In this document: positions 4,657 to 52,666 of the stretch, piece after piece
Numbering within the stretch: position 1 is the stretch's first letter
Layout: every line of letters starts with the position of its first letter
Origin: Candidatus Saccharimonadales bacterium
GTDB lineage: Bacteria; Patescibacteriota; Saccharimonadia; Saccharimonadales; UBA10212
Assembly (NCBI GenBank): GCA_025450575.1
Contig: JANWHE010000009.1
Span: 1-52,666 of the forward strand
DNA: 52,666 nucleotides
Reading direction: 5' to 3'
Position numbers and translations under genes: made by a program
The notes under the pieces: generated by a model
The model's database searches: none
What the model saw: the letters and a program-made list of their open reading frames with translations, nothing else
Told to the model about the DNA's origin: nothing

Positions 4657-7600
4657 ATGAAAAGTCCGGGGGAGACGCTGAAGCCTAAGGATTATGTGCA
4701 TCTGCATAATCATACGCAGTATTCGCTTTTGGACGGCCTGACCAAAGTCCCGGCCCTAGTGGACCGGGTGAAAAAGCTCGGCATGGACGCGGTTGCCGTC
4801 ACCGACCATGGAACCATGAGCGCCACCATAGAATTCTATAAAGCCGCCAGGGAGACCGGCATCAAGCCGATCATCGGCATGGAAGCCTACGTGGCGCCGC
4901 GTTCGCTCCAAGACAAGGACCCGGCTAAGGACCGTCAGTACTACCACTTGACCTTGCTGGCCATGAACAACCAGGGCTATCAGAATCTGATGCGGCTATC
5001 GACAATCGCCAATCTGGATGGATTTTATTATCGCCCAAGGATCGACCACGAACTGTTGGAGAAATATAATGAGGGCCTGATAGTCCTCAGCGGCTGTATC
5101 GGTGGTGAAGTCAGCGACGCTTTGCGCCAGGACCAGTACGACCAGGCTAAAAAGGCGGCCCAGTGGTATAAGTCCGTGTTTGGCGAGCGTTATTATGTCG
5201 AGCTGATGGACCATGGGCACCCCGAACACAGCGTCGTCTGGGAAGAGCAGCAGCGGGTAAACGAAGGTTTGCTCAAACTGGCCGCGGAACTGAAGCTCCC
5301 GGCGGTCGTGACCTGCGACGCGCACTACCTGCTGGAAGAAGACCAGGAGGCCCACGAGATTCTATTATGTGTCCAGACCGGCTCATTCTTATCGGACGAA
5401 ACGCGGTTTTCGCTCAAGGATTTCCATCTGCATGTCGAGGATCCGAAGGAAATAATCAAGCGCTGGGGCAAGGCTCACCCTGATCTTATTAAGAACACCA
5501 GAAAGATCGCCGATTTGTGCGAGGTGGATATCGAACTGGACAAGATTCTGATTCCTAAGTTTCCGACGCCCAAAGGCCGCGGTGAAAAGTCTTACTTGGA
5601 ACTGTTGGTCTGGCAAGGCCTGGCTTGGCGGTACGCCGGATTCCAGCGCCGGGACCTCGGCGGCCTGAGCATCGATGAGGCCAAAAAAACGCTCAGCCCG
5701 GAAATCATCAGCCGCGCGGAATACGAACTGGATGTCGTGAACCGGATGGGCTTTAACGGATATTTTCTGATAGTCCAGGACTTTATAAACTGGGGTAAAG
5801 ACCAGGGTATCGTTTTCGGCCCGGGCCGCGGCAGCGCCGCCAGTTCGATTCTGGCGTACGCGCTGAGAATCACCGAAATCGATCCGCTGGCGTATGATTT
5901 GCTGTTCGAAAGATTCTTGAACCCGGACCGCATCAGTATGCCCGATATGGATATCGATATCCAGGATTCCCGCCGTGACGAGGTCATAGAGTACTGCATC
6001 GAAAAATACGGGCGCGACCGGGTAGCCAATATCGTGACTTTCGGCCGGATGGCGGCCCGCAACTCGGTGCGTGATGTCGCCCGCGTCCTGCAGGTGCCCT
6101 ACGCCGACGCCGATCGGCTGGCTAAGATGATTCCGCCGCCGGTCCAAGGCCGCCATATCCCGCTGGCCAAATCGCTGAAGGAAATCGACGAGCTGAGAGT
6201 CGAAAACGCCAATAACGAGCAATCGCGGCGGGTGTTCGATCTGGCGGTCAGGCTGGAAGGCACTATCCGGAGCCATGGCGTCCACGCCGCCGGCGTGGTC
6301 ATCGCCCCCGATGAAATCGTCAACTACACGCCGCTGGAAATGGCCCAAAAAGGGGTTATCGCCACCCAGTATTCGATGAATCCGATCGAAGAACTGGGTC
6401 TTTTAAAAATGGACTTCCTGGGTCTGTCCAATCTGACAATCATTAAGAATGCGCTGCGTATCATCAAAAAAGTACATGGAGAAGACCTGGATATCAGCCA
6501 GATCCCGCTGGATGATAAGAAAACCTTCGAGCTGTTGCAGAAGGCCGAGACAACCGGTGTTTTCCAGCTGGAGTCGTCTGGCATGAAGCGTTATCTAAAA
6601 CAGCTCAGACCGACGGACTTCGAGGATATCATCGCTATGGTCGCGCTTTACCGGCCGGGGCCGATGCAGTGGATCGATGACTTCATCGCCCGCAAGCATG
6701 GCTTGAAGAAAATCGAATATATCCATCCAGTCATGAAAACCGCTCTGGAAAACACTTACGGCGTGATCGTCTACCAGGAACAGGTCATGCAGATCAGTAA
6801 AGACCTTTGCGGTTTCAGCGGCGGCCAAGCCGACACTTTGCGCAAAGGTATCGCCAAAAAAATCCCATCGGTTCTGGCTAAGATGAAGAAAGAATTCATC
6901 GACGGCGCCGTCCAGCACTCCGGAGCCGATCGCCGTAGCATGGAAAAATTCTGGGGACAACTGGAAGACTTCGCGGCTTACTGTTTCAATAAGGTGCATT
7001 CGGCCTGCTACGGCCTGATCGCCTATCAGACGGCTTACCTTAAAGCCCATTACCCGGACGCCTTCATGGCGGCGCTGATGACCAGCGATTATGACAATAC
7101 CGATCGCCTGGCTATTGAGATCACCGAGTGCAAGCATATGGGCATAGAGGTCCAGCCGCCGGATATCAATGAATCGTTCCACGAGTTCGGCGTGGTGGCT
7201 GGCAAGCAGCAGATCCGCTACGGATTGGATGCCATCAAAAATGTCGGCCACGGCGCCGCCGAGGAAATCCTGCGGGCCAGACAAGAGGCTGGCGGCCGGA
7301 TAAACGATCTCAGCCAATACTGCCAGTTGGTTAACTGCCGGGTCGTCAATCGCAAAGCTCTGGAAAGCCTGGTCAAGGCTGGAGCCTTCGATAGCTTCGG
7401 CGACCGCAGCCTGCTGGTCAACAACATCGATAACATCCTGTCTTTGTCGCAGAAACTGCAGAAAGATTCCGCCAGCGGCCAGGTGGATCTGTTCGGCGAT
7501 TCGCCGGCCAGCCACATGAGCCCAAAGCTGACACTGGAAACCGGCGCCCCAGGACACACTCTGCCGGAACAGCTAAACTGGGAGCGCGAATTGCTCGGTC

Positions 7601-8223
7601 TGTACCTCAGCCATAACCCTCTGGAAAGCTATAGCAAGATTTTAAATTCACTGGCCAAGCCGATTATCTCGATTACCAAAGAGCTGGATGGCCGGACAGT
7701 GACGGTCGGCGGATCAATATCGCAGCTGCGCGAAATTTCCACCAAGAATGGTTCCAAGATGGCCTTCGCCAGGCTAGCCGATACTACCGGCGAGCTGGAA
7801 CTGATCATCTTCCCTAAAACCTATGCCGCGTCCCCCGAGCATTGGCAACGTGATAATATCATCATCGCCAAAGGCCGGGTCGATTTCAGCCGCAGCGACG
7901 AGCCGAAAGTCTTAGTCGAAGAAGCTAAACTGATCAGCGAAGATGACGCTCAGAGTTTCCGGTCGGGGGGCTACGGCGGCGAAGCCGTTCTTTCCGAGAG
8001 CATCAAACAGCGTCTATATATAAGGCTGGAAGATAGTGGCAACCAGCCGCTGCTGCTGACGCTCAAAGAGAAACTGGATGGTCATCGGGGGGATACGGAG
8101 GTGGTTTTAGTCACCGGCGCCCAAAAACAGATAATCAAATTACCGCAGACGATCAATATCAACGAGGAAAGCCTGCGCGAGCTGGCCGGACTGTTCGGCT
8201 CCACCAACGTAGTAGTCCGTTAA
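4657..8223 (+). CDS. dnaE: DNA polymerase III alpha subunit
   Basis: PHP domain HLHNHTQYSLLDG...TDHGTM; catalytic PDMDIDIQDSRRDEVIEY; C-terminal OB domain. Confidence 0.98.
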   Translation: MKSPGETLKPKDYVHLHNHTQYSLLDGLTKVPALVDRVKKLGMDAVAVTDHGTMSATIEFYKAARETGIKPIIGMEAYVAPRSLQDKDPAKDRQYYHLTLLAMNNQGYQNLMRLSTIANLDGFYYRPRIDHELLEKYNEGLIVLSGCIGGEVSDALRQDQYDQAKKAAQWYKSVFGERYYVELMDHGHPEHSVVWEEQQRVNEGLLKLAAELKLPAVVTCDAHYLLEEDQEAHEILLCVQTGSFLSDETRFSLKDFHLHVEDPKEIIKRWGKAHPDLIKNTRKIADLCEVDIELDKILIPKFPTPKGRGEKSYLELLVWQGLAWRYAGFQRRDLGGLSIDEAKKTLSPEIISRAEYELDVVNRMGFNGYFLIVQDFINWGKDQGIVFGPGRGSAASSILAYALRITEIDPLAYDLLFERFLNPDRISMPDMDIDIQDSRRDEVIEYCIEKYGRDRVANIVTFGRMAARNSVRDVARVLQVPYADADRLAKMIPPPVQGRHIPLAKSLKEIDELRVENANNEQSRRVFDLAVRLEGTIRSHGVHAAGVVIAPDEIVNYTPLEMAQKGVIATQYSMNPIEELGLLKMDFLGLSNLTIIKNALRIIKKVHGEDLDISQIPLDDKKTFELLQKAETTGVFQLESSGMKRYLKQLRPTDFEDIIAMVALYRPGPMQWIDDFIARKHGLKKIEYIHPVMKTALENTYGVIVYQEQVMQISKDLCGFSGGQADTLRKGIAKKIPSVLAKMKKEFIDGAVQHSGADRRSMEKFWGQLEDFAAYCFNKVHSACYGLIAYQTAYLKAHYPDAFMAALMTSDYDNTDRLAIEITECKHMGIEVQPPDINESFHEFGVVAGKQQIRYGLDAIKNVGHGAAEEILRARQEAGGRINDLSQYCQLVNCRVVNRKALESLVKAGAFDSFGDRSLLVNNIDNILSLSQKLQKDSASGQVDLFGDSPASHMSPKLTLETGAPGHTLPEQLNWERELLGLYLSHNPLESYSKILNSLAKPIISITKELDGRTVTVGGSISQLREISTKNGSKMAFARLADTTGELELIIFPKTYAASPEHWQRDNIIIAKGRVDFSRSDEPKVLVEEAKLISEDDAQSFRSGGYGGEAVLSESIKQRLYIRLEDSGNQPLLLTLKEKLDGHRGDTEVVLVTGAQKQIIKLPQTININEESLRELAGLFGSTNVVVR

Positions 8224-9243
8224 CTATTGGGTCAGGCCGGCGGTCTGGCTTAAGATGAACAGCAAGCTGGCGATTATTAAAAGTCCGAGATCCGTCAGCG
8301 GATGGCGGATAGCATAGCGCTCGCCTTTTAGCAGATATCGATGAAGAGCCCTGGCGTGGCGCCGGGTCCAGAGCGCGCCGATGATCAGGGCGGCCATAAC
8401 CGAGCCTGCCGTCAAGACGCCGGTCGAAGTCGAGTCGCCGAGCACTAACTGGATACGCGAAGATTTTACCGGCGGGGTTAAGGATGTCCGGGGAGTAATG
8501 GTGGTAGCGGGCTGGGGTTTGGCTTCCGCAGCTGCGGAGGTCGGGGTAGGAGTCGCCGGCTGGCTGCTAGCGACCGGATTGGGTGCGGAAGGCTGGCTGG
8601 CAGCCGGCAGCGGAGCGGTAGTAGCAGCCGCCAGAACTTGGGGTTGGCCATAAAAAGCCACCACTACGGTCATCGGGCCGCCGCCGGCCGCGGTGTAATC
8701 TGGAACATTGGCATAGCCGAAGCCGACTTCTTTATATTCCGGGTCCAGCAGGTTTTCGCGGTGCGGCGGGCTGGCCATCCAGCCGTCGATAGTCGATTGT
8801 TCGTCATTAAAGCCGGTCGCCAGGTTCTGTCCCAGCTTTTGATAAGAATAACCTTGGTTTGTGACCCATATCCACGGGGGATTACCGTCCGGGGTATAGT
8901 GGCTCCAGTAGTCGCGCGCGGCCATGTCATCAGCGTTGGCTTGGGCCGCGGCATCCAGTTTATTATTAAGGCTTAGCGAGGCTACGCCGTTAGCGCTGCG
9001 CGAAGCGTTGGTGTCGGCCAGCAGGCTGCCGATAGTCATGCTGGTGGCGTAGGCCAGGACCCGTCCGCCGGGGTGTTTGGCGTAGGCGGCCAGACTGCCG
9101 CTTTGGATGCAGACCGACAACAGGACGCCGATTATCAGAATAATCGGCAGATACGGCCAATAGACTTTCTCGAACGCCCGTTTGTGGACGTTCTGAGGCT
9201 TGGTCTTGTGGCTGTCGGAATTCCGGTTTTTTATTTTGGCCAT
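8224..9243 (-). CDS. membrane protein with CAP/SCP domain
   Basis: NNKLDAAAQANADDMAARDYWSHYTPDG...WMASPPHRENLLDPEYKEVGFGYA; N-terminal TM, Pro/Thr/Ser/Ala linker, C-terminal TMs. Confidence 0.85.
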   Translation of the reverse strand: MAKIKNRNSDSHKTKPQNVHKRAFEKVYWPYLPIILIIGVLLSVCIQSGSLAAYAKHPGGRVLAYATSMTIGSLLADTNASRSANGVASLSLNNKLDAAAQANADDMAARDYWSHYTPDGNPPWIWVTNQGYSYQKLGQNLATGFNDEQSTIDGWMASPPHRENLLDPEYKEVGFGYANVPDYTAAGGGPMTVVVAFYGQPQVLAAATTAPLPAASQPSAPNPVASSQPATPTPTSAAAEAKPQPATTITPRTSLTPPVKSSRIQLVLGDSTSTGVLTAGSVMAALIIGALWTRRHARALHRYLLKGERYAIRHPLTDLGLLIIASLLFILSQTAGLTQ

Positions 9244-9290
9244 TTTATAAGTGATATTTTAACCTTAACCGATATACCTGTCCAGGAAGG

Positions 9291-9785
9291 CTAGCTGAGT
9301 TGCAGGTGATATAGGGCGATGGCGGCGGCTACCGCCACGTTGAATGATTCCTTGCGGCCGGCCATCGGGATGGCGATGGCCTCGTCGCTGATTCTTAGAA
9401 TGTCCTCTGGGATTCCGTCCACTTCATTTCCGACTATCAAGGCGATATCGTTCTGGGCGGCGTAAGTCCGCAGATCGGCCGCTGCCGGTGTCTGTTCCAG
9501 CGCGGCTACCGTAAAGCCGGCGGCCTTCAATTCGGCGATAAGGCTCTTGATGTCGGGCGCATAATCCCACTTGACCGACCGCTCGGCGCCCAGCGCCGTT
9601 TTATGGATTTGCCGGGCAAGCTTACTTACGACGTGCGGCAGGCGGGAATCATCTTTTTTGGCGGGGTAGGGCGAGTAACCGGTCAGATAGACCTTATCGA
9701 TCCCTAGCCCCTCGGCCGTCCGCAGCAGGCTGCCAACATTATGGGCCGAGCGGATATCGTGAGCCACCAAAACTAACCGTCGCAT
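9291..9785 (-). CDS. SpoU/TrmH-family RNA methyltransferase
   Basis: DIRSAHNVGSLLRTAEGLG, NEVDGIPEDIL, AIPMAGRKESFNVAVAAAIALY. Confidence 0.93.
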   Translation of the reverse strand: MRRLVLVAHDIRSAHNVGSLLRTAEGLGIDKVYLTGYSPYPAKKDDSRLPHVVSKLARQIHKTALGAERSVKWDYAPDIKSLIAELKAAGFTVAALEQTPAAADLRTYAAQNDIALIVGNEVDGIPEDILRISDEAIAIPMAGRKESFNVAVAAAIALYHLQLS

Positions 9786-9854
9786 ACCAGCAGTTTAGGT
9801 GTTAGCCGAACGGATGTCTACCTCTTAGTAGCCGCTTATGTTTTAATTAGTGAT

Positions 9855-11450
9855 ATGCAAGATGTCCGGTCACAGGAAGAGGGGGTAGCCGCCCGGCGCG
9901 CCCAAGTCCTGGGGCTCAGTTATGTCGATACCTCTAAGCTGCAGAAACAGCTGTATAAGAATGTCTTAAGCGCCACGGAGATGTATCAGCTCAAAGTGGT
10001 GCCGCTGGTGGCCGATGCCCACAATATCCACTTCGGCATTCTGACCACTACCGCCCAGCAGACTATCAATAATCTGCGCGGCCGTTTTACCGATCAGCGG
10101 CTGGTCTTTTCGGTTATCTCCGATTCTGGCTTCAAAGAATATATGAGCCTCTATGATCCGCCTAAGAAGGTTGACTATGAAGACATCAGCCTGGCGGATG
10201 ACCGATCCAGCCAACTGATCGACCAGGTCAGCCGGACGCTGGACCAGGTGCGGCCGGACGATATGCTGGCTTACCTTGTGCAGCAGGCTTACCAGCTGAA
10301 AGCCAGTGATATCCACCTGGAATGCCAGAAAGAGAATATCAGGGTCAGGTTCCGCGTGCATGGCGTTCTACACCCCGTGGCCTATATCGGCCACGACAAG
10401 TACCGCCACTTCGTGGCCAGCCTAGCCAGCGCCGCCAATGTCTATGCCGAAGCTACGGAGCCGCAGACCGGCCACATCAGCCGGGCTTATAAATTGGCGA
10501 CCGGCGAAGAGGTTACGGTCAACCTGCGCGTGGAAACCGTGCCATCGGTTTATGGGATGGATGCCGTCATGCGGCTGTTCAATATGGATCTCCAGATGCT
10601 CAAGCTGGAGAATCTGGGCTTAAGTCAAAAAGAGACCGCGGTCGTCGATGATATCATCCAGCATCCGACTGGCATGGTGCTGATTGTCGGGCCCACCGGC
10701 TCGGGCAAAACGACCACCCTTTACTCGTTGATAAATACCCTTAACACGCCGCAGCGTAAGATTATCACTCTGGAAGACCCGGTCGAGTATAATCTTCCGG
10801 GCGTCACTCAGATACCGGTGGCCGGTCAGCTGGAAGGCCATGATTTCGCCGAGCGGCTACGGGCCGTACTGCGCCTGGATCCGGACGTGGTGATGGTCGG
10901 CGAGATCCGCGACGCCGACACCGCCAAGACGGCTCTGCAGGGCGCCTTGACCGGACATCTGGTGCTCAGCACCTTCCATGCCAGCAGCAGCGCCGCCGCC
11001 CTGACGCGGATGGCCGATATGGTCGGCATAAACCCGCTGTTCGCCAGCGCCATACACCTGGTGATGGCCCAGCGCCTGGTCCGCCGGCTGGATGATACCA
11101 CTAAACAGCCGTACGAACCGGACGAAGCTCTGCGGGCCCAGGTCCAAGGCGTCCTAGACAGCCTGCCGCCCGGCGAAGATAAACCGGACATCAGCGGGCT
11201 CAAACTGTATAAGCCGGGCAGTTCGCCGCAGTATCCGTTCGGCTTCAGCGGCCAGCTGGCCATCCGCGAGCAGTTTCAGATGACGGCCGGCGTCCAGCAG
11301 CTGCTTAAGCTGCCGGTCAATCAGATAACCACCGAAAGCCTGGAAGCCCAAGCCGTCAAAGACGGTATGCGTACCATGCTGCAGGACGGCGTCTTAAAGG
11401 CTATTGCCGGCTTAACAACGCTCGAAGAAGTCTACCGGGTCGCCGGCTGA
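9855..11450 (+). CDS. pilB: type II/IV secretion ATPase, PilB/GspE family
   Basis: Walker A GPTGSGKTTTLYSLI; Asp box and DPDVVMVGEIRDADTAKTALQGALTGHLVLSTFHA. Confidence 0.92.
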   Translation: MQDVRSQEEGVAARRAQVLGLSYVDTSKLQKQLYKNVLSATEMYQLKVVPLVADAHNIHFGILTTTAQQTINNLRGRFTDQRLVFSVISDSGFKEYMSLYDPPKKVDYEDISLADDRSSQLIDQVSRTLDQVRPDDMLAYLVQQAYQLKASDIHLECQKENIRVRFRVHGVLHPVAYIGHDKYRHFVASLASAANVYAEATEPQTGHISRAYKLATGEEVTVNLRVETVPSVYGMDAVMRLFNMDLQMLKLENLGLSQKETAVVDDIIQHPTGMVLIVGPTGSGKTTTLYSLINTLNTPQRKIITLEDPVEYNLPGVTQIPVAGQLEGHDFAERLRAVLRLDPDVVMVGEIRDADTAKTALQGALTGHLVLSTFHASSSAAALTRMADMVGINPLFASAIHLVMAQRLVRRLDDTTKQPYEPDEALRAQVQGVLDSLPPGEDKPDISGLKLYKPGSSPQYPFGFSGQLAIREQFQMTAGVQQLLKLPVNQITTESLEAQAVKDGMRTMLQDGVLKAIAGLTTLEEVYRVAG

Positions 11451-11503
11451 GACCGCCCAAAGGGTTGCTTAAGGTGTTAAGATAGTGTAAAATTTATCAG
11501 TCT

Positions 11504-12091
11504 ATGGAAAGTGTTGCCCGTAAGGTATCCGATAAACAGAAGAAAAAAGCCGTCGTCGATGTCCGGCCCGGCGATACCGTTCGCGTGCACCAGAAAATCC
11601 GCGAAGGCGGTAAGGAACGTATCCAGATTTTCGAAGGCCTGGTCATCAAAGCCAGCCGCAAAAACAGCCTGACCAGCAGCTTTGCCGTCCGCCGCATCGC
11701 CAGCGGTATCGGCGTGGAAAAATCATTTTTAATCCATTCGCCAAATATCCTTAAAGTGGAGATTGTCCGCCGCAGCAAAGTCCGCCGCAACTACCTGACC
11801 TACATGCGCGAGCTGACCGGCAAGAGCGCTCGTTTAACGGGGGTAGATTTTGATAAGAAATCCGTGAATGAGATCAAAGACGAGGCCGCCGAAGCCGAAG
11901 AAGAGCGTATCCACGAAGAGCAGGTCGCCGATTATGATCCCGCGGCCGCCAAGGCCGAAAAAGCCGCCGAAGAGGCCGAAGCCGCGGCCGCTACCGCCGA
12001 AGCGCCTAAATCCGAATCCGAGAAAATCGAAGAGCAGCCTAAAGAAAAAGCCGAAGCCAAAGGGCCGGCCGAACCCCAGAACAAAGAATAG
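11504..12091 (+). CDS. rplS: 50S ribosomal protein L19 with acidic Ala/Glu-rich C-terminal extension
   Basis: PGDTVRVHQKIREGGKERIQIFEGLVIKASR...FLIHSPNILKVEIVRRSKVRRNYLTYMRELTGKSARL. Confidence 0.95.
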   Translation: MESVARKVSDKQKKKAVVDVRPGDTVRVHQKIREGGKERIQIFEGLVIKASRKNSLTSSFAVRRIASGIGVEKSFLIHSPNILKVEIVRRSKVRRNYLTYMRELTGKSARLTGVDFDKKSVNEIKDEAAEAEEERIHEEQVADYDPAAAKAEKAAEEAEAAAATAEAPKSESEKIEEQPKEKAEAKGPAEPQNKE

Positions 12092-12093
12092 CC

Positions 12094-12188
12094 GCGAGCC
12101 TCTTCCAAAACGGAGCCCGTTCCACGCGGGGCCTAAACGGCTCCGGTTGCTACTAGGGCATCCACGCTCCTTTTTGGAAGACACTCGC
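12094..12188 (+). ncRNA. candidate structured RNA / mRNA element between rplS and rnhB
   Basis: Long-range helix GCGAG-CCT-CTTCCAAAA-C-GGAGC / GCTCC-T-TTTTGGAAG-ACA-CTCGC enclosing CCGTT..AACGG and GGTTGC..GCATCC hairpins. Confidence 0.45.
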
Positions 12189-12230
12189 TCCAACTAGACA
12201 GAGAGTAGTGCTAATGGCATACTTTTAGAC

Positions 12231-12785
12231 ATGATAGGGGTAGACGAAGTGGGGAGGGGCTGTTTAGCCGGGCCGCTGCTGGTCGTAGCCGCCAGAGCTA
12301 AATCGGAGTTGCCACTGGCGCTCAAGGACTCCAAATTATTATCAAGAAAACAGAGGGAAAAAATACTTGACTTGTTAAGTATTTCCTGCGAATGGGGCGA
12401 AGGCTGGGTGAAGTGTTCGGAAATCGACAAACTGGGATTATCCAAAGCGTTGGCGCTAGGCGGCCGTAGAGCGCTGGAAAGTTTAGGCGCAAAGTCTGAT
12501 GATGAGATCATCCTGGACGGTAAGTTCAATTACGTGCCGAAGAAGTTCAGAAATTCCCAAGCTATCATAAAAGCTGACAACTCAATCCCGATAGTTTCGG
12601 CCGCCAGCATCATCGCTAAAGTCACCCGCGACTGCTATATGGTGGAATTGGCGAAAAGGCACCCGCTTTACGATTTTGAGAATCACGTCGGCTACGGCAC
12701 CAAAGCCCACATGCTTGCGCTCAAACGCCGCGGCGCGCTTAAATACGTGCACCGGCTGACATTCGCGCCGATCGCCAATCTTTAA
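12231..12785 (+). CDS. rnhB: ribonuclease HII
   Basis: MIGVDEVGRGCLAGPLLVVA, DSKLLS, SAASIIAKVTRD. Confidence 0.96.
   Translation: MIGVDEVGRGCLAGPLLVVAARAKSELPLALKDSKLLSRKQREKILDLLSISCEWGEGWVKCSEIDKLGLSKALALGGRRALESLGAKSDDEIILDGKFNYVPKKFRNSQAIIKADNSIPIVSAASIIAKVTRDCYMVELAKRHPLYDFENHVGYGTKAHMLALKRRGALKYVHRLTFAPIANL
12360..12385. repeat. palindrome repeat family copy 2 inside rnhB (inverted orientation)
   Basis: AAAATACTTGACTTGTTAAGTATTTC; reverse complement matches the gatB copy at 24 of 26 positions. Confidence 0.85.
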
Positions 12786-12821
12786 CGAAGACTAGTTATA
12801 AAAACCACAGAGCAAGGCTTG

Positions 12822-13139
12822 ATGGCCGAAAAGGCCTTGGCTGATCTGCTGGAGCAGCAGGGTTTTGAGATAATCGACCGTAACTGGAAAACCAAAGTCT
12901 GCGAGATCGATATAGTCGCCCAAAACCGCGGCGCCGTGTTTTTCGTGGAAGTAAAATACCGGCGCGGCGATTTCCAGGGCGACGGCTTTGAATACATTAC
13001 GGCTCAAAAACTTCATAAAATGAATTTTGCCGCCGAAATCTGGAAACAGACTTATAAATGGGGCGGCGATTACCGGCTGATGGCGGCGGCCGTCAGCGGA
13101 CCGGATTGTGAGGATATCCAGCTGATCGAGCTGGATTAA
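12822..13139 (+). CDS. UPF0102/YraN-family endonuclease-like protein
   Basis: MAEKALADLLEQQGFEIIDRNWKTKVCEIDIVAQNRGAVFFVEVKYR. Confidence 0.9.
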   Translation: MAEKALADLLEQQGFEIIDRNWKTKVCEIDIVAQNRGAVFFVEVKYRRGDFQGDGFEYITAQKLHKMNFAAEIWKQTYKWGGDYRLMAAAVSGPDCEDIQLIELD

Positions 13140-15706
13140 AGGTTTTTAAGCCAGTCTTTGACCGATTGTTCGTTGCGCTGGCGCCAGCTGATGCGTCCTG
13201 CGATTTCCTCGATGCCCAGCTGGATGGCCCGCTCCAAAGCCAGGTTGGTCTTCGGTCCGAAAAACGTTTCATATTCAGCCAGCTGCTCGGACTTGGAAAA
13301 AACCATCGCCGAATAGCGCGGGAAACGGTCATAAGATTTATCGCTGCCGTAATTTTTTTCCACCCAGTCCCAACTATCCTGCAGCCATCGCCAAGCCGCG
13401 TCCGTAGCGTAGCGATTGCGCATTAACCAAGCGAACCAAGTCGGCGCATCCTGCAGCCGGACGTCCGGCCCGGCAATCATCGAGAGCAGCTGCTTGATTT
13501 TGGTGGCCTGGCGCGTAGAGCTTAGCTCGGAAGCTACCTCGTCTTTCTCGTCGGCGTTCTGTAGCGAGCTATGAAGGCTGAGTAACCGGTTAAAGTCGGA
13601 ATCTGTCCCATAACGCACGCCTATGAAGTAAACGACCGACCGGATGTCCGGCGCTAAATCGGCCGGCTCTTTGAAGTTCTTAAACAGTCTTAGCCCCTCT
13701 TCGATTACCGCCGGCTCTTCGGCGGCCGCCGCTAGGCTTAAGGCCAGGCCGCGAAGTTTGAGTCTTTGGGCCGGTTCGTTTTTAGCGGCTACCCAGCCCA
13801 GCTCCTTGACTAGCGGCGCGGCCAGCGGCCGGATAAAACCATTAAGTTTCTTTTCTAGTGCCTCATTTTTATCAATCAAGTTCCGGGCGTTGCCGATGAT
13901 TCCGGCCAGCATGCTCCAGACGGCCTCGTCACGTTCATTTATGTAAGCCGGTAGCAATTGGACGTTCTGCAGGGTGGAGACCTGGCCGGCCCGTTCCAGC
14001 AGCAGGTAGTTCTGGACCAGGAGTAACCGGTCAATCGGGGTCAGGACGCCTTTTCGGGTGGCGGCCAATATCTCTTCAAAGTGGCGCTCATTCTGATACT
14101 TGGCCACGAAATAGCTATGGCCATCATGATTCAGAGTCAGTGGGTAGTTTGCTTTTCCAGTGACCGTAAGGGTGCTCTTGGTGGTCTTAAGAAGCGGTTT
14201 ATCTAGCGGCAGAGAGGCCGCCAGCGGCACTTGCCAGACGGATTTCGGACCGGGATCCTGGCCGACGACCAGCCGCTGCTGGGTCAGCGTAAGTTCTTGG
14301 CCGCCCGGCAAGTAATCGACTTCGACCACCGGATAGCCCGGTTTTTGCAGCCAAGTGCGCATGATGCCGCTAATCTTGATGCCGCTGGCCTTTTCCAGAT
14401 GGTTCCATAGGTCGTCAGCCACCGTGTTCCGGTAGGCGAACTCCTCAAAATAACGCTTTAAGCCGACTCTGAAATTATCTTCGCCGACCAAGTGGCGGAC
14501 CATGTTCAGCAGACTGCCGCCTTTGGCGTAGACGATCGAAGGATCGAATATCGAGGCCAGCTCGTCCGGGTGGTTCACTTCGGTTTGGACGGCTTGAACC
14601 GTAGGCAGGCAATCACGGGCCAAGGCGCTGCCGATTTCGCGGCGCGCGAACTCGTTCCAGATATCCCATTCCGGAAACAGCTCGTCGACCGCCCGATATT
14701 CCATAAGGTCGGCGAAGCTTTCATTCAGCCACAAGTCGTTCCACCATTCCATGGTCACTAAGTTGCCGAACCATTGGTGGGCCAGCTCGTGGCAGATGAC
14801 CATCGCCACGAACTGTTTAGTTTCAATAGAGCTGCTTTTAGGATTGACGTAAAGCACCGATTCGCGGAAGGTCACTAGCCCCCAGTTCTCCATGGCCCCA
14901 GCCGAAAAATCCGGCAGACCGATAAGATCGAGCTTCGGCAGCGGGTAGGCGACGCTGTAATAATCTTCGAAAAATTCCAGGCAGCGGACGGCGGTATCTA
15001 ACGCGAAATCCGTCAGCTTGACCTTATCAGGCGTGGCGTAAACACGCACCTCGACACCTGTTTTAGTCTTGGCCGATTTATAACCCAGTTCGCCGTAGGC
15101 GAAAGCTAGTAAGTAGGGGCTCATCCTGGGGGTGGTCTCGAACTTCGTCTCCAGCAGCCGGTCGCCTTTGGTCTGGGATTTTATAGGCGTGTTGGCGATG
15201 ACGGTCTCATCGGCCGGTGAAACAAGAGTCAAGTCGAAGGCGGCTTTGGCCTCCGGTTCGTCAATGCACGGGAAGGCTTCGCGGGCATGGTGGCTCTCGA
15301 ACTGGGTGGCAATCAGCTGCTTTTTGACGCCGCCAACCTCGAAATTACAGGGATATATGCCGTGCATCGGCTCGGTGATTTTGCCGGAAAACTCCAGTTC
15401 AACCGTGTACCTTCCCGGGTAAAGCTGCTCAGCAGCGTGCAGGCGCAGTTCGTCGAAAGATTTCTGGATATTTATTCTCTCGACCGCTATCCGGGCGTCG
15501 CCGGACCGTTTGTCGTGCCGGATTATTCCGGCCGTTTTGATTTTCAGATCTTTCTGATGCAAGGTGATTCTGGAGCTCGGCCGGCCGGTTTTGCGGCCCT
15601 TGATAACGACGCGGCCGGTGAACTCCATTTTGCCGCGGTCGGGCGTTAAGAACAGATCATAATGGTCTGGCTGGAACTCCCTAAAAAGTCGTTTTACCTT
15701 CTTCAC
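13136..15706 (-). CDS. M1 family zinc aminopeptidase
   Basis: GAMENWG and HELAHQWFGNLVTMEWWNDLWLNESFA; start placed at GTG 15706 by -10 spacing, alternative ATG 15724. Confidence 0.95.
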   Translation of the reverse strand: MKKVKRLFREFQPDHYDLFLTPDRGKMEFTGRVVIKGRKTGRPSSRITLHQKDLKIKTAGIIRHDKRSGDARIAVERINIQKSFDELRLHAAEQLYPGRYTVELEFSGKITEPMHGIYPCNFEVGGVKKQLIATQFESHHAREAFPCIDEPEAKAAFDLTLVSPADETVIANTPIKSQTKGDRLLETKFETTPRMSPYLLAFAYGELGYKSAKTKTGVEVRVYATPDKVKLTDFALDTAVRCLEFFEDYYSVAYPLPKLDLIGLPDFSAGAMENWGLVTFRESVLYVNPKSSSIETKQFVAMVICHELAHQWFGNLVTMEWWNDLWLNESFADLMEYRAVDELFPEWDIWNEFARREIGSALARDCLPTVQAVQTEVNHPDELASIFDPSIVYAKGGSLLNMVRHLVGEDNFRVGLKRYFEEFAYRNTVADDLWNHLEKASGIKISGIMRTWLQKPGYPVVEVDYLPGGQELTLTQQRLVVGQDPGPKSVWQVPLAASLPLDKPLLKTTKSTLTVTGKANYPLTLNHDGHSYFVAKYQNERHFEEILAATRKGVLTPIDRLLLVQNYLLLERAGQVSTLQNVQLLPAYINERDEAVWSMLAGIIGNARNLIDKNEALEKKLNGFIRPLAAPLVKELGWVAAKNEPAQRLKLRGLALSLAAAAEEPAVIEEGLRLFKNFKEPADLAPDIRSVVYFIGVRYGTDSDFNRLLSLHSSLQNADEKDEVASELSSTRQATKIKQLLSMIAGPDVRLQDAPTWFAWLMRNRYATDAAWRWLQDSWDWVEKNYGSDKSYDRFPRYSAMVFSKSEQLAEYETFFGPKTNLALERAIQLGIEEIAGRISWRQRNEQSVKDWLKNL

Positions 15707-48238: not shown

Positions 48239-48244
48239 AGGCCA

Positions 48245-49300
48245 CTACGGCGCGACTGGATTGGGAATACTCTGCATAACTTGGACCGAGTCCCGAACAC
48301 TCTTTAGTAGAACTACTGAATCTGATTGAAGATCAACCTCAGGGCCTAGCGCGCTTGGATACTCGACTCTATTTAGATACTGCTCTTTAGGTTCAATTTC
48401 AAAGGGCAACCGTTCAAGCTCCATGTCTTCAACTTTAGAAACCATCCTTACATTGCCGATTACTCGCTTATATGGGTCAAATTCAAAAACTATGGAATGG
48501 TATTCGCGGTCGCCCTCTATCGGACTATCCGTTAAAAATCTGGCGATGTGGCCTAAAGCCAGCAGCCGCCCGTCGGGCATTAGCCTTACGTCGTTTACGC
48601 CGCCCCATTCTTCGTCGCCAAACAGGTCATACATAAGGGGCGCTTCGTGCAGAACCGTCGCATCAATATCACTTAACCTGTCTACCACGCAAAAACCAAT
48701 TTTGCCACGTCCGCCACGACTCGGATTCCCAAGTGACTGAGGCCTGGTAAAAACACCGACTTGGCCATTTTCGAGCTCGACTAACCGCACGCATTTCATT
48801 GTCTCGGGAGACTTGGTCAATAGCTTTAGGTCATCTAACCGTTCTCCAGAAAAAATATTCGTCCAGTAGACGCAGCCGGCGGACGGGTCATCCTTATCCT
48901 TAAGCTGGACTTCGATACAGTTAACTACCCACTCACCGCCGACGTGACTGATTTGTGGATCCTGCATAATTTTGCCGGCCGTCAGTTTGTTTAGATTGGA
49001 AATAGAACTATCGGCTACCCATTTATTGCTTGTCGCGACAAACTTGAACGGAATTACTTTAGAACTGAACTGGTCATCACGTTTTTCGGTCCGGCCAAGT
49101 ATATAAGCCTCGCCACCGAGCGTGAATTGTCGGCTGGTATTGTATACATGGATTCCAGCCGGCACATCGAACTCCAGGATACTGTACTCTCCCTCCGGCT
49201 TGCGATAGGCGCTCAACAAATCATCCATGGTTGTCGGCTTAGTATCAGTTGCAGCAGACGTCTCTTCTATTGCGGGTATAGTCTCGTAACCTGAGCTCAT
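48245..49300 (-). CDS. DUF1861-like five-bladed beta-propeller glycosidase/phosphorylase-superfamily protein
   Basis: Pattern GIHVYNTSRQFTLGGEAYILGR...QDPQISHVGGEWVV...EWGGVNDVRLMPDGRLLALGHIARF; family call from memory. Confidence 0.55.
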   Translation of the reverse strand: MSSGYETIPAIEETSAATDTKPTTMDDLLSAYRKPEGEYSILEFDVPAGIHVYNTSRQFTLGGEAYILGRTEKRDDQFSSKVIPFKFVATSNKWVADSSISNLNKLTAGKIMQDPQISHVGGEWVVNCIEVQLKDKDDPSAGCVYWTNIFSGERLDDLKLLTKSPETMKCVRLVELENGQVGVFTRPQSLGNPSRGGRGKIGFCVVDRLSDIDATVLHEAPLMYDLFGDEEWGGVNDVRLMPDGRLLALGHIARFLTDSPIEGDREYHSIVFEFDPYKRVIGNVRMVSKVEDMELERLPFEIEPKEQYLNRVEYPSALGPEVDLQSDSVVLLKSVRDSVQVMQSIPNPVAP

Positions 49301-49429
49301 TTGTTTTAACTCTTTATGTTAACTTCCTATGCAGGAGTATCTTATTATCTCTAATATAAATCAAGCCTAGAATTATCAAAAATAACTAATCACGCAATAT
49401 TCGGCGGCAAAGAGGAATATAATAGAAGT

Positions 49430-51637
49430 ATGAGAGGTGCCGAACCAACTGCTGCTGTTGCCAGGAGACTGGTCTTTATCAGTACCTATCCGCCGCGGCA
49501 GTGCGGCATTGCTACTTTTACCCAGGACCTTCTCAATAGCATCAAACTGGTCGCGCCAGACTTATCCCTGGAGGTATTCGCGCTTAATAAGACCAAACTA
49601 GACTCCCACACTTATCCCGCCGAGGTTACGGGGGTCATCTACCAGGACGACCCGGCTTCATATATAGCGGCTGCCAAGCAAATCAACAAAGACCATTCCA
49701 GAACTACCGTAATCGTCCAGCACGAGTATGGTATCCATGGCGGCCCGTCAGGCCGGAATCTGCTAGAGCTACTCAAGAACCTAAAGTGCCCTGTCATAAC
49801 TACGCTGCATACGGTTGTCGAAGACCCTGACCAGACTAAGAAAACAGTAACCCAGCAATTGATTAATCTGAGCGAGCGATTGGTAACGCTTACTGAAAGT
49901 TCGGCCGATATCGTCCGGAAACTGTACGTTGATAGCGATTTGAAATTGACGGTCATACCGCATGGTATCCACCCACTTATGTATATGCCCACATCAAGCG
50001 TCAAGCAATCCGTCGGGCTCGAGGGCCATAAAGTTTTGCTGACTTTCGGACTACTCAACCGCAATAAGGGCATCGAGTATGTCATCCAAGGCCTGCCTGA
50101 AGTCATCAAAGAATATCCAAGAGTCATGTACCTGGTCGTCGGGGCCACTCATCCGGATGTACTGAGCTATGAAGGCCAATCATACCGTAATGAACTAGCT
50201 AAAATGGTCATAGAACTAGGGCTCACTAAACACGTCCGTTTTATCGATGGGTATATCCCTTTAAAAACCCTTTTGACTTATCTGCAGGCCACTGATATCT
50301 ATATGGCCACCTCGCTTGATCCCCAGCAGGCTGTAAGCGGCACCTTATCCTACGCGCTGGGAGCCGGCTGCGCTATTGTGGCGACCGAGTTCTCACAGGC
50401 CAGGGAAGTAGTCAGCAATAACCAGGGCCGGGTAGTGCCGTTTAGAGAGCCTGGAGCTATCACTAAAGCAGTTAAATCATTGCTTAAGGATCCCGCGCAG
50501 CTAGCCATGCTTAGGGCGAACGCCTATTCATCGACACGCTCCATGCTGTGGTCGAACGTCGCGGATAATTATCTTGGAGTCGCTTTCGGTGGGCAGGCAA
50601 ACACAGCCGGGCTGCCACCTATTAAACTTGGCCATATTCTCAATATGACCACCGACCTTGGTATTTACCAATTTGCCAAGCACGCGGAACCCGACTTAAG
50701 CCATGGGTTTACGCTCGACGACAATAGCCGGGCGCTCCAACTTGTAGCCGAGCTGAAAATGCTAGACAAAAAAACTAAAAAGGAATTGGCCGAAAAGTAC
50801 CTTAGAGGCATTAGAGTCTGCTTAAGCTATGAGCCGATAGTCAATTATCTGTCAGACAGCGGCAATCCCACTCAACAGAATAAAAAAGAAAATATTGACG
50901 ATAGCTATGGCCGGGCCTTTTACGCCCTGCAGGAGTTTGCTGTCATCAATGCCAAGGACGAAAAACTGTCCCAAGGAGTTGAGCGACTGATAAAAATGCT
51001 ACCACCGTTACCGCCAAGTGGCAGCCCGCGGACGACGGCTTTTTATCTCATGGGCTACGCAGCCAAGGCCGCTGCCGGTGATAAATCGATTTTACCGATG
51101 TTAACGCTTGTAGCCGACGAACTGGCGAATAAATATTATAAAAAGATAAAAAGCGGTTGGGGATGGTTCGAACCGGTCTTGACATATGCCAATGGTACTT
51201 TGAGCGCCGCCCTGATTGAAGCCGCTATCGTCACCGGATCCAAGAAGTATGCCAAAATCGGCCTTGAGTCGTTAGATTTCCTGGTTAAAGAGTGCTTCAT
51301 GGGCGAGATTTATGTGCCGATAGGTAGCGATGGTTGGTATGAGTTCGGTAAAAAAAGAGCGATATTCGGGCAGCAGCCCGAGGACCCGTTCGCTATCATA
51401 CAAGCCCTGCAAGCCGCTTATAAACTAACTGCGGACAAACGGTATAGGGCCCTTGCGCGCAAGGCTTTTAGCTGGTATCTAGGCAACAACCTCCTCGGTA
51501 TTAGGCTTTACAATGACGAGACCGGCGGCTGTTACGATGGACTTTTTCAAGATGGCCTCAATCCGAACCAGGGCGCTGAATCAAGCGTCGCCTATCTGCG
51601 GGCCCGCATAATGATAGGACAGTTCGCTAAAGGCTGA
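49430..51637 (+). CDS. GT4-type glycosyltransferase fused to C-terminal (alpha/alpha)6-like domain
   Basis: FISTYPPRQCGIATFTQDLLNSI; GT-B Rossmann GLLNRNKGIEYVIQGLPEV; C-terminal DDSYGRAFYALQEFA, GWGWFEPVLTYANGTLSAALIEAA. Confidence 0.85.
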   Translation: MRGAEPTAAVARRLVFISTYPPRQCGIATFTQDLLNSIKLVAPDLSLEVFALNKTKLDSHTYPAEVTGVIYQDDPASYIAAAKQINKDHSRTTVIVQHEYGIHGGPSGRNLLELLKNLKCPVITTLHTVVEDPDQTKKTVTQQLINLSERLVTLTESSADIVRKLYVDSDLKLTVIPHGIHPLMYMPTSSVKQSVGLEGHKVLLTFGLLNRNKGIEYVIQGLPEVIKEYPRVMYLVVGATHPDVLSYEGQSYRNELAKMVIELGLTKHVRFIDGYIPLKTLLTYLQATDIYMATSLDPQQAVSGTLSYALGAGCAIVATEFSQAREVVSNNQGRVVPFREPGAITKAVKSLLKDPAQLAMLRANAYSSTRSMLWSNVADNYLGVAFGGQANTAGLPPIKLGHILNMTTDLGIYQFAKHAEPDLSHGFTLDDNSRALQLVAELKMLDKKTKKELAEKYLRGIRVCLSYEPIVNYLSDSGNPTQQNKKENIDDSYGRAFYALQEFAVINAKDEKLSQGVERLIKMLPPLPPSGSPRTTAFYLMGYAAKAAAGDKSILPMLTLVADELANKYYKKIKSGWGWFEPVLTYANGTLSAALIEAAIVTGSKKYAKIGLESLDFLVKECFMGEIYVPIGSDGWYEFGKKRAIFGQQPEDPFAIIQALQAAYKLTADKRYRALARKAFSWYLGNNLLGIRLYNDETGGCYDGLFQDGLNPNQGAESSVAYLRARIMIGQFAKG

Positions 51638-52616
51638 AAATCTCTTCTAGCTTGAGGCTGCCTGTACAAATCACTGTGTCGCCGGCGCCATAATAAATAC
51701 GAAGTTCGCTCTGATCCTTGCCGAGTATAGCTCCGCAGCAGAAAATCGCCTTCGGCAACTTATCTTCGGCCGAAAGCCTATGTAAGTCCTCTACCACGAG
51801 CTGTTTAAGAGTCTCAAACCCGCCGTCGATAACGTCTATAAAACCTATCTTTTCATATGATTCCTGGGGCTCGGTAATTGGCCGGCTGCAGCGCCATAAC
51901 ACTTTTCGGGGATCGTTGGTATCTACTAGGAAAGCGCCTATTCTATAGGTCATTTTAGAGTCCAGCCTATCCACGCCGTGATAAATTACCAGCCAGCCGC
52001 GATCAGTCAGTATCGGTGGCGGCCCAGTCTCGACATATACGGCATCGAAATTATCGGGGCGCTTGGTCAGCACCGGCTCAATTACCGGAGTCCAATTAAC
52101 CATGTCGTCAGACTCGGCTATCCATATATGGCTGTCACCGAAAAGCATGTAGTATTTGTCATTGATCTTTTGGGGAAATATGGCTCCGCCCTTTGACCAA
52201 TCGAGCGGGAAGCCATCTCTGGCGCTTTGATTCCACTCCGGGAAAAGCAGCTTCCTCTCCTTGAAATGAATCAGATCCAAGCTCGATGTCAACGCTGCTC
52301 TGGCGGTCTTCCCGTCAAAAGCCGTATAGGTTATCCAATAACAGCCGTCTATAAAAACGACCCTGGGGTCCTCGCAGCCGGCGCTCTCCCATGGGTGGGA
52401 CGGTGATAGGACGGGAGAGGGCAAGGGATGGAAGTCTAAACCGTTAGGGCTTTCAGCATATCCGATTCTAGAGACCCATTCGTTGCCGATGCCCCTAAAA
52501 AGCATGTGATATCTTTGGCCGTCATAACTTATGGCCGGATTGTAGACTTTTATAGAGCACCACGGTAAGTCATCACGGGCCCGGAGTATCGGATTGCGTT
52601 CATACCGCTTAAGCAT
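51627..52616 (-). CDS. GH130-family beta-mannoside phosphorylase-like protein
   Basis: YERNPILRARDDLPWCSIKVYNPAI, GCEDPRVVFIDGCYWITYTAFDG, GGAIFPQKINDKYYMLFGD, ETGPPPILTDRGWLVIYHGVD. Confidence 0.88.
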   Translation of the reverse strand: MLKRYERNPILRARDDLPWCSIKVYNPAISYDGQRYHMLFRGIGNEWVSRIGYAESPNGLDFHPLPSPVLSPSHPWESAGCEDPRVVFIDGCYWITYTAFDGKTARAALTSSLDLIHFKERKLLFPEWNQSARDGFPLDWSKGGAIFPQKINDKYYMLFGDSHIWIAESDDMVNWTPVIEPVLTKRPDNFDAVYVETGPPPILTDRGWLVIYHGVDRLDSKMTYRIGAFLVDTNDPRKVLWRCSRPITEPQESYEKIGFIDVIDGGFETLKQLVVEDLHRLSAEDKLPKAIFCCGAILGKDQSELRIYYGAGDTVICTGSLKLEEIFSL

Positions 52617-52666
52617 GTTGGCAGTTTACATGAAAAATCAGATAGTTATCTACAACTTTAGCAGCC

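Follow-up and report, generated by a model that had tools for sequence, protein, structure and literature searches.

Enzymes of the families GH130 and GT108 act on beta-mannosides, while the glycosyltransferases of family GT4 are retaining enzymes that are expected to form alpha-linkages and usually contain an E-x7-E motif. Among the GH130 proteins, those without phosphate ligands but with two glutamates (Glu227 and Glu268 in BT3780) are beta-1,2-mannosidases (Cuskin et al., PMC4599007), and of the GT108 enzymes of Leishmania (MPTs), MPT3, 4, 6 and 7 are the only ones given as characterised phosphorylases in a review (PMC8950772). We describe here a block of three genes in which members of these three families adjoin each other, located in the interval between fusA and tuf of Candidatus Saccharimonadales bacterium, a member of the Patescibacteria. 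The stretch of DNA that was analysed (referred to as the window) is one whole contig of 52,666 bp from a 643-kb genome, which is 87% complete. Within this block a GT4 protein fused to an (alpha/alpha)6 barrel and a GH130 protein represent a conserved gene pair, of which the GH130 is here predicted to be a hydrolase, and a GT108-type protein of the family DUF1861 is added to them. The genes are as follows:

48245..49300, minus strand: DUF1861 / GT108-type beta-1,2-mannosyl phosphorylase-like protein, 351 aa (PF08950, MPT-4 match)
49430..50614, plus strand: GT4 (GT-B) glycosyltransferase domain, residues 1-395 (Pfam PF00534/PF13692)
50615..51637, plus strand: (alpha/alpha)6 domain of the same protein, residues 396-735, no Pfam family (alignment of 73 sequences, AlphaFold, Foldseek)
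51627..52616, minus strand: GH130, predicted hydrolase-type (beta-1,2-mannosidase-like), 329 aa (PF04041, residues, trees, fold)

The first open reading frame (ORF) is divergent from the second (49430-51637, 735 aa), from which it is separated by 129 bp, and the second and third are convergent with 3' ends that overlap by 11 bp. The first-pass annotation of this DNA had described the same three ORFs, with their coordinates, strands and layout, and had placed them in DUF1861, GT4-(alpha/alpha)6 and GH130 in a reduced bacterium; the ORFs were confirmed, the family assignments are borne out by Pfam (PF08950, PF00534 and PF04041) and the fold of the barrel, and the bacterium belongs to the Patescibacteria.

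The protein encoded by 51627-52616 matched PF04041 with an E value of 3.3e-57 (194 bits) and contains the Asp of the GxEDPR motif. Its structural model was identified in a fold search as the five-bladed propeller of GH130, and its best match by sequence in the PDB is the beta-1,2-oligomannan phosphorylase 9fj8. The following codons specify active-site positions upon which its assignment depends:

52368..52370, minus strand: D83, the conserved catalytic Asp of the family (GCEDPR)
52191..52193, minus strand: K142, which aligns with the Lys of beta-1,2-mannoside phosphorylases
52134..52136, minus strand: D161, which occupies the site of BT3780 Glu227
52029..52031, minus strand: E196, which occupies the site of BT3780 Glu268, where the other aligned sequences have Gly

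In alignment with BT3780, the segment LFG-D161-SHI of this protein corresponds to YWG-E227 and VYV-E196-TGPP corresponds to LT-E268-CGPP. At these two sites the phosphorylases read LHR and (R/K)xGxG, whereas the hydrolases read WGE and TECGPP, and the acidic pattern formed by D161 and E196 was found only in the window protein among the 101 GH130s that were tabulated. Additionally, two basic positions conserved in the phosphorylases have been lost, with F159 replacing the Arg of LHR and Y194 replacing the Arg/Lys of ES(R/K)xG; the phosphate-binding residues of GH130 were assigned from conservation and the published description (PMC4599007) and not from coordinates. Equivalents of other BT3780 contacts (D83, N26, R41, E82, Y224, and D313) are present, and the counterpart of its specificity residue Lys199 is K142 if the protein is aligned to the phosphorylases and R134 if it is aligned to the hydrolases. 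In phylogenetic trees the window GH130 branched with the hydrolase-type structures (support 99/95), and in a second tree it grouped with four of them (96.5/99). The NCBIfam models for mannoside phosphorylases (NF052550, 204 bits against a cut-off of 450) and for beta-1,2-mannosidases (NF058598, 142 bits against 550) both matched below their cut-offs. Due to the loss of the basic residues of the phosphorylases and the gain of carboxylates at both base positions, this protein is probably a hydrolase of the beta-1,2-mannosidase type and not a phosphorylase. The earlier annotation had regarded it as a phosphorylase and had pointed to the catalytic Asp and phosphate-binding residues of the cluster; the Asp is retained both here (D83) and in the DUF1861 protein (D114), but two basic positions conserved in the phosphorylases are replaced in the GH130, and the phosphorylase assignment is not upheld.

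The closest described hydrolases, BT3780 and BACOVA_03624 (GH130_NC), share with the window GH130 the catalytic Asp, both base carboxylates, a TxGPP-type motif, and a shortening by one residue before the first base carboxylate with a longer loop preceding it. In contrast to them, it has Asp in place of Glu227, His213 in place of Asn, and an overall fold that is closer to the phosphorylases; its N-terminus (MLKRYERNPILRARDDLPW) also shows no hydrophobic secretion signal by eye, and it contains a 27-residue insert of low confidence (residues about 262-288) that is absent from the other 11 GH130s aligned. Conversely, the beta-1,2-mannoside phosphorylases Teth514_1788/1789 provide the best fold match, the highest identity (34%) and the aligned Lys142, but differ from it in the basic residues replaced by F159 and Y194 and in the acidic D161 and E196. 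Elsewhere, tandem GH130 genes were observed in many Patescibacteria (loci L173, L174, L176, L179, L186, L187, L190, and L196); they encode proteins of about 630-660 aa in which two GH130 propellers are fused, the longest frame extending to 1285 aa, and most of the genomes concerned are without a GT4-(alpha/alpha)6 gene.

The product of 48245-49300 matched PF08950 (DUF1861) with an E value of 3.2e-50 (171 bits, cut-off 28). The structures nearest to it are those of GT108 enzymes from Leishmania (MPT-4, 6q50, E 3.4e-24 by phmmer), the DUF1861 family profile matches the MPT structures at E 2e-66 to 3e-64, and a profile check of the protein stays inside DUF1861; the relationship of DUF1861 to Leishmania GT108 that the first-pass annotation had proposed is thus substantiated. 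Three of its codons are of particular significance:

48959..48961, minus strand: D114, which aligns with D94 of MPT-2, the residue mutated in 6q4z, and is invariant in the alignment
48743..48745, minus strand: R186 (TRP), common to MPT-4 and replaced in MPT-1 and MPT-2
48548..48550, minus strand: H251 (LGH), as the GH of MPT-4; SHH in MPT-1/2

Together with N54, R70, K169, N236, and K305, these residues are kept in the window protein and in eight other Patescibacteria members of the family, and even within the Patescibacteria the identity of the window protein to other members is low (about 21-30%). Because R186 and the Gly-His are as in MPT-4, which is listed among the characterised phosphorylases, the bacterial DUF1861 proteins, including that of the window, look to be of the phosphorylase type, with the signature of MPT-4 and not of MPT-1/2, and the beta-1,2-mannosyl phosphorylase step that the GH130 of the block has lost may be provided by the window protein. 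It is like the Leishmania MPTs in family, full length, the conserved Asp and the MPT-4-type R186 and H251, but differs from them in being bacterial and in adjoining a GT4 fusion and a GH130.

In the sampled genomes of the phylum DUF1861 is rare (8 of 381), and it is enriched where GT4-(alpha/alpha)6 is present (5/8 vs 29/373, p 2e-4; 4/7, p 1.4e-3, if the genome of the window is left out), the kinship of the genomes not being corrected for in either value. One complete genome (G120) contains GT4-(alpha/alpha)6 and DUF1861 and no GH130 was found in it by profile search; in G108 a DUF1861 and a GH130 gene are arranged convergently. A capacity of GT108 to replace the phosphorylase partner is consistent with these patterns but is not proved by them. 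No consistent neighbours of DUF1861 were evident in other Patescibacteria, where GH130 adjoins it in G108 only. In G120 a heliorhodopsin gene directly follows the GT4-(alpha/alpha)6 gene (L071:10628-11407).

The protein that lies between these two genes was found in 34 of the 381 sampled genomes, encoded by one gene in about 14 of them and otherwise mostly by adjoining GT4 and barrel genes, and in none of the sampled genomes of the same genus or family. A scan of the collection identified at least 583 candidates for GT4-(alpha/alpha)6 from many bacterial phyla and from archaea, of which 80 were kept for locus counts. GH130 adjoins the gene in 69 of these 80 loci, which likewise span many bacterial phyla and archaea; it is on the same strand upstream in 33 and downstream in 33, convergent in two and divergent in one, and several of the remaining 11 loci are cut by contig ends. 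DUF1861 was found beside GT4-(alpha/alpha)6 in none of the 80, and the adjacent trio was seen only in the window. At the genome level, GT4-(alpha/alpha)6 and GH130 also co-occur (29/34 vs 22/347, p 1e-24). Since GH130 is adjacent in 69 of 80 loci and DUF1861 in none, the conserved unit is the pair of GT4-(alpha/alpha)6 and GH130, which is ancient and widespread, and not the trio. The suggestion that the three genes belong together is therefore retained in part, in the enrichment of DUF1861 in genomes containing the GT, and fails as regards their adjacency. In comparison with the pair of many other phyla, the window has the same fusion and GH130 adjacency, but its GH130 is hydrolase-type, a DUF1861 gene is added and the gene order is convergent.

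The closest relative of the window GT is from Levyibacteriota (L093), where the gene directly downstream encodes a highly divergent propeller of GH130-like type that matches no Pfam family (L093:9178-10122; hhalign 89%, E 2e-6; EDPR and WRIG motifs). Among the neighbours of the pair in Patescibacteria and DPANN archaea are further GT4s (13/148), GH100/GDE-like glycosidases (6), GH94 phosphorylases (3), and ROK kinases (3); no such family appears in the top list for control genes located farther away. In L081 (genome G085, 6908-14630) a GT4, barrel, GH94 phosphorylase, GH130, and ROK kinase form one cluster. No publication that describes or names the pair was found in a search of the open-licence literature.

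The GT4 domain of the fusion was identified with an E value of 4.7e-18 (PF00534, 65.7 bits, cut-off 26.4), and in place of E-x7-E it contains Q300-x7-Y308, which is common to the whole GT4-(alpha/alpha)6 subfamily. The last 340 residues of the fusion protein gave only weak matches to (alpha/alpha)6 profiles, and they are predicted by AlphaFold to fold as an (alpha/alpha)6 barrel (pLDDT 96.7), for which the closest fold by Foldseek is YPO2471 (7tem, E 3e-11), followed by the cellobiose 2-epimerases. The invariants of the barrel in an alignment of 73 sequences are a DD pair, an Arg, W-x-W (WxWFE), a Gln, and NxNQGAES; the DD and NxNxGAES motifs are common with 7tem. No His of the barrel core is invariant in this alignment, where only H7 of the domain is nearly so, and epimerase activity is therefore unlikely. 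An AGE or cellobiose 2-epimerase role was considered in view of the fold, and is rejected by motif, as the catalytic His pair is missing; the fusion to GT4 is a further difference from YPO2471 and these epimerases. The barrel may have a glycosidase-like or a binding role. A phage origin of the GT was also considered and rejected, no relative having been found among viral contigs.

From the gene content, families, conservation of the pair, active-site residues and genomic slot we infer a tentative explanation, which we favour and to which we assign a nearly even chance of being correct. According to it the block is an acquired island whose core is the GT4-(alpha/alpha)6 and GH130 pair, GH130 being hydrolytic here and the GT108-type DUF1861 protein carrying out the phosphorylase step. 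The retaining GT4 would most likely build an alpha-linked glycoside or acceptor, and to this product or to a related mannoside GH130-type enzymes would add beta-mannosyl residues, or take them off again, phosphorolysis being their usual mode of action. In the window, the GH130 would instead cleave beta-1,2-mannosides irreversibly with water, yielding mannose, and the GT108-type protein would catalyse a reversible step between alpha-mannose-1-phosphate (Man-1-P) and beta-1,2-mannosides. The more specific proposal, that the phosphorylase of the pair was turned into or replaced by a cytoplasmic hydrolase and that GT108 took over beta-1,2-mannosyl phosphorolysis, appears somewhat unlikely; if true, it would represent a bacterial system joining a mannosyl phosphorylase of the Leishmania mannogen family and a mannosidase.

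Several observations weigh against this explanation. When the active-site stretches were masked, the hydrolase grouping of the GH130 was recovered with weak support (88/59), so that convergence is possible. The protein keeps a phosphorylase-like H213, where BT3780 has Asn, and in fold and identity it is nearest to the phosphorylase Teth514_1788 (34-35%, Foldseek rank 1), the hydrolases being 23-28% identical. Because G085, G108, and G355 hold DUF1861 plus other GH130s, DUF1861 is not simply a substitute for GH130. Lastly, searches of the genome of the window, of which 13% may be missing, revealed no pathway to a mannose donor sugar: a PF00483 search for ManC (GDP-mannose pyrophosphorylase) in this 87%-complete assembly finds RmlA and GalU only, and a PF02878 search for PMM/PGM finds nothing, PF02878 being patchy among relatives in any case (10 of 21 genomes searched).

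These absences bear most directly upon the mannogen-like reserve that the first-pass annotation had envisaged, in which mannose is polymerised by GT4, GT108 or both and is released again as Man-1-P by GH130 and GT108. A GT108-type protein with the MPT-4 signature, the beta-1,2 Lys aligned in GH130, and the lack of obvious signal sequences, which makes the proteins probably cytoplasmic, are all in its favour. However, a self-made mannan reserve is weakened by the failure to find ManC and PMM; the GH130 is also without the phosphorylase residues, the adjacent trio is not conserved, and a retaining GT4 would form alpha and not beta linkages. Such a reserve is possible, but we do not favour it and consider it improbable. 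Salvage of beta-1,2-mannosides imported from a host or the environment, cut by GT108 (phosphorolysis) and GH130 (hydrolysis) while GT4-(alpha/alpha)6 takes part in the metabolism of an unrelated glycan, agrees with the adjacency of two beta-mannoside-cleaving families and with the presence of genes of the ROK kinase and bact-PGI/PMI types in the vicinity of the pair in certain other Patescibacteria. The tight linkage of GT4 and GH130 across phyla, the missing PMM and the absence of a transporter from the block nonetheless render it quite unlikely. We hold similarly low expectations of the synthesis of an envelope glycan or glycolipid, to which GT4 would add sugar and which the propeller enzymes would trim or cap: the additional GT4 genes near the pair (13/148), the pairs of (alpha/alpha)6-like glycosidase and GT4 in the fusA-tuf slot of relatives, and the dTDP-rhamnose (rml) genes and GalU of this genome are consistent with it, but the block contains no flippase, polymerase or membrane enzyme and its proteins show no obvious membrane anchors.

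The favoured explanation, with a hydrolytic GH130 and a GT108-type phosphorylase step, thus concerns a variant of known enzyme families inside a conserved and apparently undescribed pair of bacterial and archaeal genes, and this variant is what is new here. It presents a candidate phosphorylase/hydrolase switch in GH130 adjoining a bacterial GT108 enzyme, testable with three small soluble proteins, and it bears on the product of the pair, on GT108 chemistry outside the trypanosomatids and on cytoplasmic mannosides in ultra-small bacteria.

The composition and position of the block provide evidence regarding its origin. Two further features are relevant in this context:

48239..52666: acquired block, from 6 bp past the fusA stop to the contig end (codon fit and GC content at third codon positions, GC3)
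49301..49429: divergent AT-rich intergenic region, 29.5% GC

The codon fit of the three genes is the lowest of the 26 genes of the window (-0.19, -0.02, and -0.08, vs 0.06 to 0.44), and their GC3 is 0.50-0.57 vs 0.60-0.77, which, along with the AT-richer intergenic DNA, agrees with the acquired block that had been inferred earlier from codon use. Promoter and terminator scans gave matches that were not above chance, and the same holds for promoter-like matches in 49301..49429. Within the family to which this bacterium belongs, the slot between fusA and tuf is variable and holds differing carbohydrate genes, viz. a protein of about 510 aa and a GT4 in G001, G004, and G005, GH13 and GT4 in G007, and little or no such content in G002, G003, and G006; the inserts are 3-5 GC points lower than their flanks, and one of the 510-aa proteins has a weak, below-cut-off match to a mannosylglycerate-hydrolase-like (alpha/alpha)6 glycoside hydrolase. 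No copy of the universal gene tuf (EF-Tu) was found in the assembly, which is what a break of the contig within this slot would lead one to expect and which fits a gap directly after the contig. A contig-end chimera carrying a block from another organism, which the abrupt shift in composition, the location at the contig end and the lack of a GT homologue in the sampled same-genus or same-family genomes might suggest, is very improbable, as the junction 6 bp past the fusA stop is the slot where relatives hold other, also lower-GC, carbohydrate genes, the absence of tuf is that expected of a break there, and the reported contamination is 0.08%. In view of the known variability of the slot, the composition of the inserts and the tuf gap, the lateral acquisition of a carbohydrate island into the fusA-tuf slot of this Patescibacteria genome is better supported than a chimera. 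At the slots of L074, L076, L077, and L078, the genes observed were those for the 510-aa protein and GT4, for GH13 and GT4, and for acyltransferase-like proteins.

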